Assembly (NCBI GenBank): GCA_903835255.1
Contig: CAILMI010000068.1
Coordinates: forward strand, 1-64,000
Reading direction: 5' to 3'
DNA length: 64,000 nucleotides
From: an uncultured Verrucomicrobia subdivision 3 bacterium
GTDB taxonomy: Bacteria; Verrucomicrobiota; Verrucomicrobiia; Limisphaerales; UBA11358
The first letter of the stretch is position 1. Every line of letters starts with the position of its first letter. Both the position numbers and the translations under genes were made by a program. The notes below the pieces were generated by a model. That model saw nothing but the letters and a program-made list of their open reading frames with translations. It had not been told where the DNA came from and ran no database searches. Positions 8,312-55,024 of the stretch are shown here, piece after piece.

Positions 8312-8666
8312 AATAGACTGGGTGCCTCCCCTGCCCCGAAACGTTTCATAAGGTGCATTGACCTCGCTGGGCTGGCGGCGATTATTCCGCTCCGCAATCA
8401 TTCACTTCTTGCCCGCGTGGCATAGCAGTTCTTGGCAACTGTGGGACAAGCAGGGCGCGTCACTCCGTGCGCGCCGTCGTGGTAACCCCGCACGCGTGGG
8501 TTGGCAACCGCGGCGTGCAGGGGACTGCCCGCCCTACCTACCGATGTTTCAAGGTTAAGTTTAACGGACAAATTTTGGAGTTCGGGTTTACCCCGAATTC
8601 TGAAGTTTGCGTCCGTGAGTTAGGGTCAGCCCGCTGCCCTGCCCTCCAATACGGCCCTGAGTGTAT
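8312..8666. other. Intergenic stretch holding a single copy of the composite repeat
   Basis: This gap lies between two convergent genes. It contains one unit of the 90-bp repeat (8450-8538) with its left flank from about 8426. At 8576-8606 two back-to-back copies of a GTTCGGGTTT/CCCCGAATTC motif occur, which also marks the repeat islands near 16.1, 22.3 and 55.0 kb. No gene was recognised. Confidence 0.6.
8450..8538 (+). repeat. Composite intergenic repeat, solo unit
   Basis: This 89-bp unit has two hairpins: GGCGCG with its partner GCGCGCC around TCACTCCGT, and GTGCAG/CTGCCCGCC near the right end, closing with GCCCTACC. It matches the units at 21971-22060 and 22209-22298 in the same orientation, with more differences than those two have from each other. 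Confidence 0.8.
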
Positions 8667-19988: not shown

Positions 19989-20090
19989 CAGGGCGGAACA
20001 AATAGGGATAAGACACCCGCTTTGCCCATCCCTTTCCGTCGCCTGACGCTGCGCTCGGCGCCGGTGACGCCGCAGCGCGGCATCCCTGCC
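19989..20090 (+). repeat. 102-bp intergenic repeat (family 2), copy 1
   Basis: The unit runs from CAGGGCGGAACAAATAGGG to CGGCATCCCTGCC and contains a hairpin of GCTGCG and CGCAGC around CTCGGCGCCGGTGACGC. Copies 2 and 3 lie at 21488 and 21729 in the same orientation. Here it fills the gap between the convergent lplA and rsmB-type genes. Confidence 0.75.
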
Positions 20091-21487: not shown

Positions 21488-21589
21488 GGGAGGCGAAACG
21501 AATGGGCATAAGACACCCGCCTTGCCCATCGCTTTCCGTCGCCGGACGCTGCGCTCGGCCCGTGGACGCCGCAGCGCGGTATCCCTGCC
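21488..21589 (+). repeat. 102-bp intergenic repeat (family 2), copy 2
   Basis: It is similar to copy 1 over its full length. GATAAG is replaced by GCATAAG, and the central hairpin keeps GCTGCG/CGCAGC with a shortened loop. The sequence after it (CCAAGACTGTTGAAGTGCGG) also resembles what follows copy 1. Confidence 0.75.
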
Positions 21590-21728: not shown

Positions 21729-21831
21729 CAGGGCGGAACGAACGGGAATAAAACACTCGCCTTGCGACGCGTTTTCCGGCGCCTGACGCTGCGCTCGGCG
21801 CCGGGGACGCCGCAGCGCGGCGATCCCTACC
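21729..21831 (+). repeat. 102-bp intergenic repeat (family 2), copy 3
   Basis: It has the same ends and hairpin as copy 1 (CAGGGCGGAAC to GATCCCTACC) with scattered changes. It is followed by a second palindromic arm pair ending GCGCAGCGCGATGACC, as at 54580-54600. Confidence 0.75.
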
Positions 21832-21970
21832 TTTAAAAAACCGGCGCGGGAGGGACTTTCCTTCCGGCACCTTTCCAGACGCTCGATGAACGCGGGCGAG
21901 GTTAGCGCAGCGCGATGACCCGCCGCGCTGGCGCAAACCCCTTTGGGCAATTCTTGGCACCTGTGAGACA

Positions 21971-22060
21971 GGTAGGGCGCGTCACTCCGTGCGCGCCGTC
22001 GTGGTAAACCAGGACGCGCAGGTTGGCAATCGCGGCGGGCAGAGGACTGCCCGCCCTACC
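21971..22060 (+). repeat. Composite repeat, unit 1 of the 22-kb pair
   Basis: This 90-bp unit runs from GGTAGGGCGCGTCACTCC to CTGCCCGCCCTACC, with two internal hairpins. By eye it differs from unit 2 (22209-22298) at only two positions. A conserved left flank (TTCTTGGCACCTGTGAGACA) is shared with the solo copy at 8.4 kb and the copy at 54.9 kb. Confidence 0.85.
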
Positions 22061-22208
22061 TGCGCGCTTTTTGCGCAAGCGGATCGCTTTATTATTTGCT
22101 CGGCTTCAGTAGCACGAGCAGACCGGATACATCCCGATGGATGAAGGATGTATGGATCTGGATTGACCGACCCAAGGATCGGCTGCCGCCCTCTATGAAT
22201 CGCGGTTA
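22061..22208 (+). repeat. Conserved 148-bp spacer between the two repeat units
   Basis: This spacer contains GCGCAAGCGGATCGCTTT, CGGCTTCAGTAGCA and GACCGACCCAAGGA. It reappears in inverted orientation at 54725-54873 between two further units, with an estimated 75-80% identity. It has no coding frame of note. Its conservation as a block suggests that it belongs to the element, possibly as a structured RNA. Confidence 0.7.
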
Positions 22209-22298
22209 GGTAGGGCGCGTCACTCCGTGCGCGCCGTCGTGGTAAACCAGAACGCGCAGGTTGGCAATCGTGGCGGGCAGAGGACTGCCCGCCCTACC
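22209..22298 (+). repeat. Composite repeat, unit 2 of the 22-kb pair
   Basis: This is a direct copy of 21971-22060 with two differences by eye. It is followed by CCAAGGTTAACCCGAATTTCGG, the end motif of the islands. Confidence 0.85.
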
Positions 22299-22391
22299 CA
22301 CTCATATGCCAAGGTTAACCCGAATTTCGGAGCTCCCCACCGACCCTCTTGCGCTCCTGCTTGCGGGGCGAGGCGGAGGAGCGTTTCCGCA

Positions 22392-33023: not shown

Positions 33024-33227
33024 CTACCCAGAAAGTCCGGCACGCTCATGTTCACTTAGGGCCGGTTGTTCCACGCCGGATCTCCCGGCTTGACCTGATA
33101 CATGTAAGCCCACCGTGCCGATGGGTGAGGCACTGTTCGCGGTGACGGGGCCGGATGCGATGGTGGTGAGCGATAACGTTGAAACGCTGAGCAAGCCCAG
33201 CAGCGCGCCAGAAATTATTTTATTCAT
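33024..33227 (-). pseudogene. Truncated paralogue of the glycine-rich secreted protein
   Basis: The frame begins MNKIISGALLGLLSVSTLSL, nearly the signal peptide of the protein at 35673-37295 (MNKIISGGLLGFLTVLTLSI), continues TIASGPVTANSA with a deletion relative to the paralogue, and then loses similarity and stops. About 180 bp upstream of its ATG (33228-33410) are also closely copied from the region upstream of the paralogue (37296-37478). Only the promoter region and export signal were duplicated or retained. Confidence 0.7.
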
Positions 33228-33410
33228 AGTTCCGAACTCCGTGGGAACAGGGTTTGACACTGGTTCAAACAAGATTAGAGGTCCACGGAGAGATACCCGG
33301 AAAGATGAGTGACAAGAGCGATGCTAAAGCAATCGGAGGGGTGGCAAGCTTCAAGTCATCCGATTTGGACCGGGTTTCATAAATATCACGCCAAGGAAAT
33401 ACAACGGTTC
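33228..33410 (-). repeat. Duplicated upstream region of the glycine-rich protein gene
   Basis: This block matches 37296-37478 with about one change in eight to ten bases. Shared stretches include CTCCGTGGGAACAGGGTTTG, GGTCCACGGAGAG, GATGAGTGACAAGAGCGATG and CAAGCTTCAAGTCATCC. It may hold a promoter read on the minus strand. Confidence 0.75.
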
Positions 33411-33497
33411 CCCACCCGTCAGCCCGCTCGTCAGCCGCCTGCTTCCGGAATTACGGGATCCCGGAAGCAATCTGCAGACTCCCCCCATCGTCCGCCA

Positions 33498-35567
33498 TTA
33501 CGGCGAGCGCACGCGATAGTATTGGGTAGCGCGATTCGTGTTTTGAGTGTCGTTAAATTGATAGTTCCCCGAGCCGGCCGGGGTTTCCACCACTGGGCCC
33601 AGCAGGGTCCAGTTAACCAGCGGCAGAGCTAGGTTGGTGGTGCTCAAGGCCGTGAAGCCCAGACCGGTCAGGTTGGTAAAGCTCAATTGGAACCCGCCCC
33701 CGGCCGATAATGGAGTGCCCGTCAGGCTGAAGGCGACTGGCGCATTGGTCACCTGGGATTCATAGGCGCCCATATCTACGATGGCAGCGATGATGCGCGG
33801 ATTAAGATCTAAATCTAGGGCGGTGGTGACGTAGGCGTTATCCCCGGTATTGCGGCAGGGTGAGGACGCCTGCAAATGGTAGTCATCGATACCGGCGTTC
33901 ACGAATTGCGGATCGGTATCAATATTCCCCGAACCGCTGGACGGCAGCGGCAGCGTGCAGGAATTGCCGAATACCCCAAAATAATAGTTTAAGTAATTAA
34001 CACTCCCACCCGTATTCAGATAGACAATGCAGTTGACCGCGCTTGCATTGTACAGGCCGCCGCCGCGGTAGGTTGTTGAGTTGCCGGCAATGGTGCAGTT
34101 GGTAAAATATCCATTGTAGGCACCCCCGCCCTCCACAGAAGTGTTGCCTGCGATCAAGCAGTTATTCATTGCTGCGCTCTTGCCACCGCCTCCTTGAGAG
34201 GTGCCTGTATTTTTTAGCAGCTTGCAGCGTAAAAGAGTGCCGTTGGCGACTCCACCGCCATAAGTAGCCGTGTTGGAGATCACCAAGCAGTTGTCTAAAG
34301 TGGAACTATAAGCTCCGCCACCGGAAAAAGTCGTGCCGGCAGTATTATTTGAAAGCGTGCAGTTCGTAAGGGTGCAGGTGTGGGCCCCGCCGCCATCTTT
34401 TTGCGATTTATTCCCAAATAGCGTGCAGGCGCTGAGGGTGCTGGACATTCCCCCGCCTCCGTAGGATCGCGCGGTGTTATTGGAGAGAGCGCAGTTGTCG
34501 AGCGTGCTATTAACCACCCCGCCCCCATTAAACGCGTTATTACCTAGGAGCGTGCAGTGGGTCAGCGTGCTGGCATTAGCGCCGCCGCCATCAGAACTGA
34601 ATTGAGTGGTCTTATTTGAGATCAGAAGGCAGCTGGATAAAATACCGTAGCTGAGCCCACCGCCGAAGCCATCGCTGGTGTTACCGATCAGGGTGCAGCG
34701 ATAGAGCGTGTTGGAATAGCCCCCGCCGCCATCTCCGGTGGCGTAGTTGTTCGTCAGCGTGCAGTCATAGAGCGTTCCCCGATACACCCCGCCCGCATTG
34801 ATCCCTCTGCTGCCGGTAATCCAGCAATTGCTGATAACGACCTGGGAAGAGGCCGCGTAAACTCCCCCTCCAAAGGAAGTGACATTCCCGTTAGTAAGGG
34901 TAAAGCCTGCCAGCAGGGCGCCATTCGTCATCCACACACAGCGGATGCTGGAGCCGCCGATGATCGTGGTGAATGACGGCCCATTGACGCTGCGCACCGT
35001 GATCGCTTTATTGATCAGCACCCGGTTATCGTATGCCTGATCGTCTGGAGTCGTGCCGACACCATAGACGCCGTTCGTCACCAGCACGGTATTCCCTGCC
35101 ACTGCCGCATTGATGGCGTCCTGGATATTGGTTGCAGCGGTAACCCAGCTCGAATAAGGGAAAGCCGGCGTAGGGTTATTTGGATTCACGAACTGGGTAT
35201 CCAAGGACAGCGTGGTCAAGGTGATATCACTCCCGTAATAAATCCCGGCACTGTTGGTTGCCACCAACCGCGAATGATAAAGCGTCCCCGGGGCTAGGCC
35301 GCTCAGGAGGTTGGTCACGTTTAAGGTAATATTGGTCGCCACCAGCGTGTTGGTGGCGCTGTAATTGCCATAGTTGGTGGTCAACCCGTATTGAAACCAC
35401 GCCTTGCTCGCCGCGCTATTAGGATTGACCGTTCCATTGAGCATGACCGTGGTGGCGGTGAGATTGCTGACCGCCAGCGTGGTGACGGTGGGCAGCGCCG
35501 CCTGAGCGGTGGGCATCAAGTGAAGCGCACAGCTCAGCGCGAGAGCGATAATGATTTTGTTTTTCAT
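33498..35567 (-). CDS. Secreted right-handed beta-helix protein with FN3 module
   Basis: The 689-residue protein has a signal peptide (MKNKIIIALALSCALHLMPT, cut near AQA). An FN3-like module follows (TTVMLNGTVNPNSAASKAWF, TTNYGNY, APGTLYHSRLVATNSAG), then a long run of beta-helix coils, each with a GGG turn and a Cys (pattern S.L..CTL.NNTA..GGG), about residues 220-560. An SPCRNTG and DLDLNPRI.....DMGAYE block (choice-of-anchor Q type) and a C-terminal domain ending YYRVRSP follow. Such Cys/Gly-rich helices resemble polymorphic outer-membrane proteins and adhesins. It is probably surface-bound. Its neighbour on the same strand shares the C-terminal domain. Confidence 0.85.
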   Translation of the reverse strand: MKNKIIIALALSCALHLMPTAQAALPTVTTLAVSNLTATTVMLNGTVNPNSAASKAWFQYGLTTNYGNYSATNTLVATNITLNVTNLLSGLAPGTLYHSRLVATNSAGIYYGSDITLTTLSLDTQFVNPNNPTPAFPYSSWVTAATNIQDAINAAVAGNTVLVTNGVYGVGTTPDDQAYDNRVLINKAITVRSVNGPSFTTIIGGSSIRCVWMTNGALLAGFTLTNGNVTSFGGGVYAASSQVVISNCWITGSRGINAGGVYRGTLYDCTLTNNYATGDGGGGYSNTLYRCTLIGNTSDGFGGGLSYGILSSCLLISNKTTQFSSDGGGANASTLTHCTLLGNNAFNGGGVVNSTLDNCALSNNTARSYGGGGMSSTLSACTLFGNKSQKDGGGAHTCTLTNCTLSNNTAGTTFSGGGAYSSTLDNCLVISNTATYGGGVANGTLLRCKLLKNTGTSQGGGGKSAAMNNCLIAGNTSVEGGGAYNGYFTNCTIAGNSTTYRGGGLYNASAVNCIVYLNTGGSVNYLNYYFGVFGNSCTLPLPSSGSGNIDTDPQFVNAGIDDYHLQASSPCRNTGDNAYVTTALDLDLNPRIIAAIVDMGAYESQVTNAPVAFSLTGTPLSAGGGFQLSFTNLTGLGFTALSTTNLALPLVNWTLLGPVVETPAGSGNYQFNDTQNTNRATQYYRVRSP

Positions 35568-35672
35568 GGTTCTGAATTCTGAGTTAAGTCCCGCCCAGCC
35601 GTGGGGTCTCCACAGGCAGAGTTCGGGTCGCCACTTTAGGTTCGTTGCTTCGTTATTTTTTAAAAACGGATT

Positions 35673-37295
35673 TTAAGGCGAACGCACGCGGTAGAAACGG
35701 GTGGGGTTGTTCGTCGCCTGCGGGTCGGTGAATTGATACCGGCCCGGCGGATTCTCCACGGGCGCGCCCAGCACCGTCCAGTTAGTCAGCGGCACGGCCA
35801 CGTTGGTGCTGCCCAGCACGCTGAAGCCCAGACCGGTCAGGTTGGTGAAGTTCAGTTGGAACCCGCCCCCGGCCGATAATGGAGTGCCCGTCAGGCTGAA
35901 GGCGACTGGCGGACTCACGCTGTTGGTGAAGGTCAGGTCGCTGCCGTAGTTCGTGCCCGCACTGTTGGCGGCCGCCAACCGATAATGATACACCGTGCCC
36001 GGTGCCAGCCCGCTCAGGAGATAACTCACATTCAAGATCCCATTCGTCGCTGCCAGATTGTTGGTGGAACTGAAGCTGCCATAGTTGGTGCTCGTGCCGT
36101 ATTGGAAATACGCCGCAGTGTCCGCGCCATCGGGATTCACCGTGCCGTTGAGCGTTGCGCTGGCCGCCGTGATGCCGCTCGCCCCCATAGTGTTCACTGC
36201 CGGCGCGAGAACCATCACCAAGATTTGCACGAACCCGTTACCGGCCTGCGAACCGCCAACATTTATCTGATTAAAGCCGGCATTGATAGAACCGCCGCCA
36301 CCGCCGCCGCCATTCAGGTCACCGTTGCCGCCGGTGTAACCGCCGCCGCCACCGCCGCCGCCGGGCAAACTGCCGCCACCATTGCAACCACCGCCACCAC
36401 CGCCAAAACCACCGGTGCCGCCGCTGACGACTCCAATGCTACCGCCAGCCAGGCCAGCAGTAAACCCAGCGCCACCACCACTGCCATAAGCACCGCCGCC
36501 GCCGTTACCAAAAAAACCGCCGCCGCCGCCGCCACCTCTACTGTCACCGCCGCCGCCAAATCCCTCGCCAGCGCTGGTGAGTCCATCGCCGGCACCCCCG
36601 GTATAAGCAGCGCCGCCGCCGCCACCAGCGACGACTAAGGCATTGGTAGTGCCAGAGAAAAAGGAGACCCCGAAACTACCACCCCCCCCAGCGCCATAGT
36701 TCATGCTGCCCGGGGTGACACCTCCCATTCCTCCGACAGCAATTTTGACCCGCTGCCCTTGAGTCAGGCTAAAGTCTCCCCTGATTAGAGCTCCCAAGCC
36801 GCCGCTCAAGCCGCCTTGAGCGCCGGAGGCTACAATCCGATAGATTCCGCTCGCCGGCACCGTCCAGTCAACCGATCTGCCAGTGTAGTTAAATGTATTG
36901 GTCTCCAACGGCGCCGCGATCAGGTTGGCGAAGATCTGGTCACCGCCATAACTGGTGCCGGCACTGTTGGCCGCCACCAGCTGGAAATGGTAAACCGTCC
37001 CTGCCAAAAAACCGCTGACGAGATGGCTCACATTCAAGACCGAATTGGTCGCCGCCAAATTATTGGTGGAACTGTAGCTGCCGTAGTGGGTGCTGGTGCC
37101 GTATTGGAAGTACGCCGCAGTCGCCCCGCCGCCGGGATTCACCGTGCCATTGAGCGCGGCGTTGGTCGCGGTGACAGGGCCGGCTGCGATGGTGGCCACC
37201 GTTGGCAGGCCAATCGGTGCCGCTTGGACGGTGGTAATTGATAAAGTTAAAACAGTGAGGAATCCCAGCAGCCCGCCGGAAATTATTTTATTCAT
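35673..37295 (-). CDS. Secreted glycine-rich protein with two FN3 modules
   Basis: From ATG 37295 it has 540 residues. A signal peptide (MNKIISGGLLGFLTVLTLSI) is followed by an FN3-like module, then FNYTGRSVDWTVPASGIYRI and a glycine-rich domain (about residues 160-350) with long GGG runs. This is the type in which polyglycine helices pack around a core, also known in animal ALK receptors and in bacterial surface proteins. A second FN3-like module and the C-terminal domain ending FYRVRSP follow. That domain is almost identical in sequence to the one in the neighbour. A frame extension to 37340 exists, but the signal peptide starts at 37295. Confidence 0.82.
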   Translation of the reverse strand: MNKIISGGLLGFLTVLTLSITTVQAAPIGLPTVATIAAGPVTATNAALNGTVNPGGGATAAYFQYGTSTHYGSYSSTNNLAATNSVLNVSHLVSGFLAGTVYHFQLVAANSAGTSYGGDQIFANLIAAPLETNTFNYTGRSVDWTVPASGIYRIVASGAQGGLSGGLGALIRGDFSLTQGQRVKIAVGGMGGVTPGSMNYGAGGGGSFGVSFFSGTTNALVVAGGGGGAAYTGGAGDGLTSAGEGFGGGGDSRGGGGGGGFFGNGGGGAYGSGGGAGFTAGLAGGSIGVVSGGTGGFGGGGGGCNGGGSLPGGGGGGGGYTGGNGDLNGGGGGGGSINAGFNQINVGGSQAGNGFVQILVMVLAPAVNTMGASGITAASATLNGTVNPDGADTAAYFQYGTSTNYGSFSSTNNLAATNGILNVSYLLSGLAPGTVYHYRLAAANSAGTNYGSDLTFTNSVSPPVAFSLTGTPLSAGGGFQLNFTNLTGLGFSVLGSTNVAVPLTNWTVLGAPVENPPGRYQFTDPQATNNPTRFYRVRSP

Positions 37296-37561
37296 GGTTC
37301 TGTACTCCGTGGGAACAGGGTTTGATACCGGTTCAATCAAGATTAAAGGTCCACGGAGAGGAACCCGGAAAGATGAGTGACAAGAGCGATGTTAAAGCAA
37401 TCGGAGGGGGTAACAAGCTTCAAGTCATCCTATTTGGACCGGGCTGACTGACAAATAAAACGACAAGGAACTTCAACGGTCGAATCCGAATGGTCCCCCC
37501 TCCCCTCCTCAGAAAGAGGAGAGGGGATTGAAAAAAATCCAATCTACCAGAGCGGCTCCGA

Positions 37562-39135: not shown

Positions 39136-39555
39136 ATGGAGAACCAAACCCTTATCCTGCAGGTCAAAAATAATTTTGACGACATCCCCGCCGCCAACGA
39201 AGCGGCCTCGGTCTGGCTGGGCGACCGCAATGCGCCCCCGGCCATCGATTATCTCGCCAACCTGGCCATCGAGGAACTCGTCACCAACTGCATCAAGTAC
39301 GGCTACGACGATGCCGGGGAACATCAGGTTCAAATCACGCTGAGCCTGGCGGACAGCCAGATGCAGCTGACCGTCACCGATGACGGCCACGCCTTCAATC
39401 CTCTGGACCTGCCGCCGCCGGACACGAACCTGCCCGTGGAAGAGCGGCCCATTGGCGGGCTGGGAATTCATCTATTGCGCCAGATGTCCGACCGGATGGA
39501 ATACGTCCGGATTGACGGCAAGAACCAACTCACTCTCTGGAAACGTTACACTTGA
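39136..39555 (+). CDS. RsbW/SpoIIAB-like serine kinase (anti-sigma factor ATPase)
   Basis: The 139-residue GHKL-fold protein has the N box EELVTN (46-51), the G1 box DDGHAFNP (82-89) and the G2 box GGLGIHLL (107-114). Such kinases phosphorylate STAS partners on Ser and bind either the partner or a client. Four STAS-containing proteins lie within 7 kb, but no sigma factor or PP2C phosphatase is seen. The last codons (WKRYT and stop) are part of a 40-bp tandem duplication. The gene starts an apparent operon to 48.0 kb. Confidence 0.88.
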   Translation: MENQTLILQVKNNFDDIPAANEAASVWLGDRNAPPAIDYLANLAIEELVTNCIKYGYDDAGEHQVQITLSLADSQMQLTVTDDGHAFNPLDLPPPDTNLPVEERPIGGLGIHLLRQMSDRMEYVRIDGKNQLTLWKRYT

Positions 39556-39611
39556 AGAAACTGTTTGCGCAACTCTCTGGAAACGTTACACTTGAAGAAA
39601 CTGTTTGCGCA
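39532..39611 (+). repeat. 40-bp perfect tandem duplication at the kinase stop codon
   Basis: The unit starting ACTCTCTGGAAACGTTACAC occurs twice without change (39532-39571 and 39572-39611). The first copy includes the end of the kinase gene. The second is intergenic. The kinase frame is unaffected, because its stop codon lies in the first copy. Confidence 0.95.
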
Positions 39612-54430: not shown

Positions 54431-54635
54431 GCCTTATCCCGCGGCCCGCGACATAATTCAATTCCGAAGCAAGTGGTAGCGGCATCGCGCTGCGATGCCT
54501 CCGCGCCGCATCCGGCGCGGAAGAGATTTTGAAGGCAGTCCGTTGCGTTCCCCTTCTGACGCCCGCTCAACGCAGGCGAGATCATCGCAGCGCGATGACC
54601 CTATGGCAGTTCAACTTAACCTTGGGATATTGGCC

Positions 54636-54724
54636 GGTCGGGGGGGCAGCCCCCGGCCCGCCGCGGCTGCCAACCTACGTCACCTTATCCCCGAGGCGGC
54701 GCGCACGGAGTGACGCGCCCTACC
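54636..54724 (-). repeat. Composite repeat, inverted unit 1 of the 54.7-kb pair
   Basis: Read on the minus strand, it matches the 90-bp unit at 22209-22298, with extra changes in the middle. It ends (plus strand) GGCGCGCACGGAGTGACGCG followed by CCCTACC. Confidence 0.75.
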
Positions 54725-54873
54725 TGACCGCGATCCAGCGTGGGCGGCGGTCGGTCCTTGGGTCGGTCCATCCGGATCTGGGTATCCCTCATCCATCAGG
54801 ACGGATACGGTCTGCTCTTGCTACTGAAGCCGGGGTAATAACAAAGCGATCCGCTTGCGCAAAAAAGTCCGCA
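54725..54873 (-). repeat. Inverted copy of the conserved spacer
   Basis: The reverse complement aligns with 22061-22208 along its whole length, sharing GCGCAAGCGGATCGCTTT, CGGCTTCAGTAGCA, GAGCAGACCG and GACCGACCCAAGGA. Spacer length (149 versus 148 bp) is conserved. Confidence 0.72.
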
Positions 54874-54960
54874 GGTAGGGCGGGCAGTCCCCTGCCCGCC
54901 GCGGTTGCAACCCGCGCGTGCGGATTTACCACGATGGCGCGCACGCAGCAACGCCCTACC
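54874..54960 (-). repeat. Composite repeat, inverted unit 2 of the 54.7-kb pair
   Basis: Read on the minus strand, it matches 21971-22060. The flank beyond it (CTGTCCCAGAGTTGCTAAGA) is the inverted form of the left flank of the 22-kb copy and of the solo unit at 8.4 kb. Confidence 0.78.
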
Positions 54961-55024
54961 TGTCCCAGAGTTGCTAAGAACTGCCCTACCATGCTGGCGC
55001 AAACTCCTATTTCGGAATTCGGGT

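Follow-up and report, generated by a model that had tools for sequence, protein, structure and literature searches.

An IS630-type MITE family with a REP-dimer core and modular composites in a genome of Verrucomicrobia subdivision 3

Elements in the window and their gene setting

The window, a stretch of 64,000 nucleotides on contig C68 of a MAG from an uncultured Verrucomicrobia subdivision 3 bacterium (3.17 Mb in 70 contigs, 97.5% complete), holds three copies of an interspersed element, and all three are in gaps between named genes, as the first-pass annotation had described. Element 1 is flanked by genes for an aconitase and an RsmB/F-type methyltransferase, element 2 by a TatD-like and a BNR/sortilin-like gene, and a solo element by genes for a DUF2721 protein and a helicase. 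The best relatives of the aconitase are in MAGs labelled Verrucomicrobia, Verrucomicrobiales or Limisphaerales. According to that annotation, the element consists of two 90-bp units around a conserved spacer, and most of this description held. The units at 21971-22060 and 22209-22298 show exactly two differences (22013, G/A, and 22033, C/T), the same unit-spacer-unit order is present inverted at 54636-54960 with a spacer of ~149 bp, a solo unit is located at 8450-8538, and folding gave the two GC-rich hairpins claimed for each unit. Furthermore, searching the window for the unit's first 26 bases at up to 3 mismatches gave four matches, compared to a mean of 0 in 100 shuffles. Units and spacer had therefore been placed rightly, but the limits of the element had been drawn too narrowly, leaving out terminal inverted repeats. 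With these included, the full elements span about 21945-22318 (right end truncated), 54604-54986 and 8423-8570, as listed below, where L and R are the left and right terminal inverted repeats and U is the unit. At the left border of element 1, TT is found at 21943-21944 instead of the outer TA.

21945-22318, plus strand: composite element 1, L-U-spacer A-U-R, its right end truncated into another repeat (CCCGAATTTCGG...)
21945-21971, plus strand: left terminal inverted repeat (L) of element 1, IS630-like
21972-22059, plus strand: unit U1 of element 1, a REP dimer (GTAG-hairpin ... hairpin-CTAC)
21972-21997, plus strand: REP1 of U1, GTAGGGCGCGTCACTCCGTGCGCGCC
22034-22059, minus strand: REP2 of U1 (inverted), GTAGGGCGGGCAGTCCTCTGCCCGCC
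22061-22208, plus strand: spacer A of element 1, 148 bp
22210-22297, plus strand: unit U2 of element 1, a REP dimer
22299-22318, plus strand: truncated right terminal inverted repeat (R) of element 1, ending ...CCAAGGTTAA
54604-54986, minus strand: composite element 2, complete L-U-spacer A-U-R, 383 bp
54602-54603: TA target duplication of element 2, right side (empty-site copies in L253)
54987-54988: TA target duplication of element 2, left side
54875-54958, minus strand: first REP dimer of element 2
54727-54865, minus strand: spacer A of element 2
54638-54723, minus strand: second REP dimer of element 2, with another core variant, CTCGGGGATAAGGTGACG
8423-8570, plus strand: solo element, L-U-R
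8451-8537, plus strand: REP dimer of the solo element

Other repeats are also present in the window. A second interspersed repeat (CGCCTGACGCTGCGCTCGGCGCCGG...) fills the gap beside element 1, with copies at 19989-20081, 21489-21581 and 21729-21821. A perfect 40-bp direct tandem duplication (ACTCTCTGGAAACGTTACACTTGAAGAAACTGTTTGCGCA) is located at 39532-39611, where two ORFs overlap, and diverged long direct repeats (170-283 nt) occur at 33111-37409 in a block of large repetitive minus-strand ORFs.

Terminal inverted repeats, TA target sites and the IS630 partner

When the copies were aligned outward, sequence conservation was found to reach beyond the unit edges. The left end reads TATAGCMGTTCTTGGCAACTKTGGGACAG and the right end CCGCCGATGTCCCAAGGTTAAGTTGAACTGCCATA, which as reverse complement matches the left one imperfectly, the two being alignable over ~30 bp. 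A 22-base left-end pattern gave 74 matches genome-wide and its reversed control 0, so that the MAG holds at least 74 left ends, together with at least 125 units. The whole-genome search proposed by the first-pass annotation likewise returned many copies, namely 51 matches to the composite query, 22 to the spacer and 94 copies of the first hairpin. In 40 further left-end loci that we fetched, a REP dimer or its decayed start follows in nearly all cases, and we saw no MITE free of any REP-dimer trace among the well-preserved left ends. Complete solo elements measure ~148 bp and are nearly palindromic, their own model matching on both strands, and composites measure ~380 bp. The family is thus short, non-coding, multi-copy and bounded by terminal inverted repeats. 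Four of these MITEs (L173, L177, L194 and L025) have on their right side, adjoining or nearby, a different short repeat, TAGCGTCGGGTTCGTTTTGTGAGCGGATTTCCTTCAATGACGCTATGA, which has the inverted ends CATAGCGTC and GACGCTATG and is possibly another MITE.

The borders are enriched in TA. At the left border T is found in 58 and A in 56 of 74 copies, with a preceding C in 43; at the right border the figures are 47 and 45 of 60, with a following G in 26. The context is typically C-TA-G and composition is near random further out. About a quarter of the ends are not TA, some copies reading TC, CA or GA, which we read as decay or off-consensus targets.

We looked for empty sites by comparing elements inserted in other repeat families with uninterrupted copies of those repeats in the same genome. 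This reference was chosen because the intergenic DNA next to aconitase is too diverged across species to align, and none of 80 aconitase loci of other species carried the unit. Interspersed repeats like CGCCTGACGCTGCGCTCGGCGCCGG adjoin many elements and served for this purpose. The element at C14:98647 sits within a repeat that has seven uninterrupted matches among the loci, some of them overlapping; that at C64:62776 sits within another, whose uninterrupted site is found in two overlapping loci; and the composite at 54604-54986 sits within a third, with two uninterrupted copies. In all three cases the flanks, put together with a single TA between them, are back in register with the uninterrupted repeat, which reveals a 2-bp TA duplication. 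Because the register is restored across the whole composite at 54604-54986, this element was inserted as one piece. Both the border enrichment and the three empty sites therefore show the TA target-site duplication of an IS630-type MITE.

Compared with the terminal repeats of IS630 elements in three genomes of the same genus (G003, G006 and G013), the MITE ends agree at 19-23 of 30 bases. In G003 and G013 the IS630 ends read TATAGCATTTCAYATTKACATTGGGACATA and TATAGYRATTAACAATAAMATTGGGACATA, the first being identical to the MITE right end at 23 of 30 positions. In fact, the best among 40,005 TA-starting 30-mers from 134 loci were MITE copies of relatives (G002, G003, G005 and G009) and the ends of three IS630 elements (L215, L216 and L218). 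IS630 and MITE ends are alike over about 30 bp only. The IS630 element of G013 encodes HTH_Tnp_IS630 (PF01710) and DDE_3 (PF13358) in two overlapping frames, and DDE_3 is present in 21 of 36 genomes searched. As the ends resemble IS630 terminal repeats of same-genus genomes, we assign the element to the IS630-type MITEs. Its own genome gave 0 DDE_3 matches, an absence that in a MAG 97.5% complete is not proof, and the IS630 DNA of G013 had no match there in a search run without a positive control; the mobilizer is therefore deduced from relatives, where the likeness of the ends makes IS630 the likely one. A transposase in the same genome is not strictly required of a MITE. The left end itself occurs 0-3 times in each of seven same-genus genomes, compared to 74 times in the MAG.

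REP dimers, spacers and composites

The unit consists of two inverted palindromes, each with a GTAG tag (REP1, GTAGGGCGCGTCACTCCGTGCGCGCC, and, inverted, REP2, GTAGGGCGGGCAGTCCTCTGCCCGCC), and is a GTAG-tagged REP dimer of the REPIN/BIME kind. REP2 shows compensatory changes between species at two stem pairs, from GC to CG in five sequences and from GC to UA in one, and this is the hairpin covariation for which a check had been proposed. Few copies and hairpins without covariation had been named as what would speak against the first-pass view; copies are many and REP2 does covary. Where that view hesitated between a REP/BIME and a MITE family, the element turned out to be both, as the GTAG-tagged dimer lies inside an IS630-type MITE. 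The "larger element" that it had also suggested is equally real, since L and R enclose units and spacer.

In same-genus genomes the unit disperses on its own, being mostly found alone and with sharp borders at GTAG and CTAC. In G009 (C59, 50611-52207) REP dimers are arranged in tandem without a long spacer, and one of the strands carries roughly twelve first hairpins. G009 also has perfect copies of REP1 and REP2 at no more than about 800 bp from a Y1 transposase gene, which scores 70 bits against IS200 (over the cut-off) vs 24 bits against canonical RAYT (cut-off 80); such proximity was seen at 1 of 20 Y1 loci fetched from relatives. The whole family in the MAG could be a pure REP/BIME (REPIN) family with its own RAYT, the flanking inverted repeats being incidental, and the dimers that stand alone in many relatives, as well as tandem forms such as the one in G009 with its ~85-bp period, fit such an origin. 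We consider it improbable for the MAG, where 122 of the 125 units have a terminal repeat or a spacer next to them (42 of the 125 being L-U-R) and only three have neither, and where the insertion borders and the empty sites lie at the TA of the terminal repeat and not at GTAG. Moreover, a search for the RAYT-type transposase gene suggested earlier found no Y1_Tnp in this genome; Y1_Tnp is present in 51 of 59 genomes searched. We therefore keep to a MITE that carries the dimer in its interior.

Composites follow the plan L-U-(spacer-U)n-R, L and R enclosing one, two or three units. Depending on the array, the spacer position is filled by spacer A, by spacer B (~122 bp) or by a longer relative, C, which makes at least three spacer types. 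Each of the 22 matches of spacer A in the MAG adjoins units, and the mean pairwise identity of spacer A between elements is 87%. A phage, plasmid or viral source for it was considered and rejected, as it matched no phage or plasmid record and a 31-base piece had no exact match in viral contigs. In L059 and L068 (C24), the unit is followed not by the right end but by a sequence related to, though diverged from, the beginning of spacer A (ctgcggacttttttgtgattgagttgtgttattattt), which may be a fourth spacer or a truncated array.

The conserved spacer had also been taken as a hint of a structured RNA, and under this reading it would be a small or regulatory RNA with the units as terminators or processing hairpins. 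A mean column identity of 91% over 21 aligned copies, a minus strand that folds better than 200 shuffles (z -3.15) and a T-run after the last unit hairpin are in agreement with it. However, the plus strand reaches only z -1.46, just one of 24 pairs is doubly changed (covariation term -0.33), a test made weak by the 91% identity, as low divergence leaves it little power, and Rfam returned no family at gathering score, its single sub-threshold match being located in the unit. Spacers B and C occupy the place of spacer A, which is furthermore absent from all 35 other genomes searched, and young transposed copies stay conserved without selection. All these data make an RNA gene very unlikely.

Arrays repeat at a fixed period, about 238 bp with spacer A and 211 bp with spacer B. 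They can comprise three or more units, and several contigs break off within them. Units are more alike within one element (mean 0.87) than between different elements (0.81-0.83), and some elements contain two different core variants. That the repeats are simply a satellite or minisatellite growing in place, with no transposition, would account for the fixed periods, the two, three or more modules and the contigs that end in arrays, but solo and composite copies at many unrelated, TA-bounded sites with empty counterparts leave it hardly any credibility as the sole explanation. Array change is here a process secondary to transposition, and we read the composites as the spread of ready-made composites together with recombination between direct units.

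Origin of the family and relation to known elements

TA-bordered terminal inverted repeats, 2-bp TA duplications, at least 74 sites and IS630-like ends within the same genus characterize this family, and we hold, with a probability of roughly 0.87, that it is a non-autonomous IS630-type MITE with a REP-dimer interior, i.e. two inverted GTAG-tagged palindromes. An IS630 transposase acting in trans would have excised complete L-U-R elements and inserted them at (C)TA(G) sites. An ancestral MITE of the genus would have acquired the REP dimer, probably via Y1/RAYT-type transposition, and the dimer would then have multiplied as MITE cargo. A piece of DNA caught between two REP dimers and bounded by the same terminal repeats could move with them as one element, and the empty site of 54604-54986 shows such a move for one composite. 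Recombination between direct copies of the dimer could in turn add or remove spacer-unit modules, which we propose because one-, two- and three-unit forms, a fixed period and mixed unit variants are all found. This explanation needs no cellular function; copies near genes may influence where transcripts end or how stable the RNA is.

GTAG/CGTC repeats have been surveyed before, with REP dimers found in many phyla and Opitutus terrae, also of the Verrucomicrobia, being rich in GTAG repeats (PMC3733652). The closest parallel is the GTAG-15 repeat of Anabaena variabilis, in which REP dimers lie inside long TATAGGA...TCCTATA palindromes, with TATA at start and end (PMC3733652). That case belongs to another phylum and has other sequences, IS630 is not mentioned there and no spacer-unit arrays were seen (PMC3733652). 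RUP of Streptococcus pneumoniae is likewise short and non-coding, and its terminal inverted repeats resemble those of an IS630 element, IS630-Spn1 (PMC3049150), and NEMIS and Nezha are other short non-coding bacterial MITEs with terminal inverted repeats resembling an IS (PMC3733652). Unlike all of them, the element of the MAG has a REP-dimer core and a modular size, and its IS630 partner is found only in relatives. The pneumococcal BOX elements, whose ends resemble ISSpn2, have the plan boxA-(boxB)n-boxC (PMC3049150), and our composites share with them two end modules and a variable number of tandem inner modules; the likeness is one of plan and we claim no kinship of sequence. The inner module here is a REP dimer plus a spacer of one of at least three types, unlike in BOX. 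Finally, REPIN/BIME elements with a RAYT are made of inverted GTAG-tagged palindromes, sometimes clustered with segments of flanking DNA (PMC2817692, PMC3733652), whereas in the MAG the dimers are carried within a MITE and the search found neither a RAYT nor any other Y1 gene. We found no prior description of the family in a literature search of open-licence papers. It is a new family of IS630-type MITEs that is built around a REP dimer and forms modular composites; its kind is known, the combination is unusual.

Its interest lies in bringing together RAYT-linked REP dimers and IS630 MITEs, two classes of small bacterial repeats that are as a rule studied separately, since a single element with a clear border and empty sites unites them. 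It also serves as a caution that a conserved spacer between repeats is not necessarily an RNA gene. Furthermore, it illustrates how a genome in which we found no RAYT can still maintain REP dimers, and by what route modular elements of the BOX type could form. Tentatively, and with rather less than even confidence, we suggest that a REP dimer whose own transposase was lost from the lineage lives on only as cargo of an IS630 MITE, its duplicated copies acting as recombination handles that capture unrelated DNA, such as spacers A, B and C, into new transposable composites. If so, this would be a route by which small mobile elements gain inner sequence.
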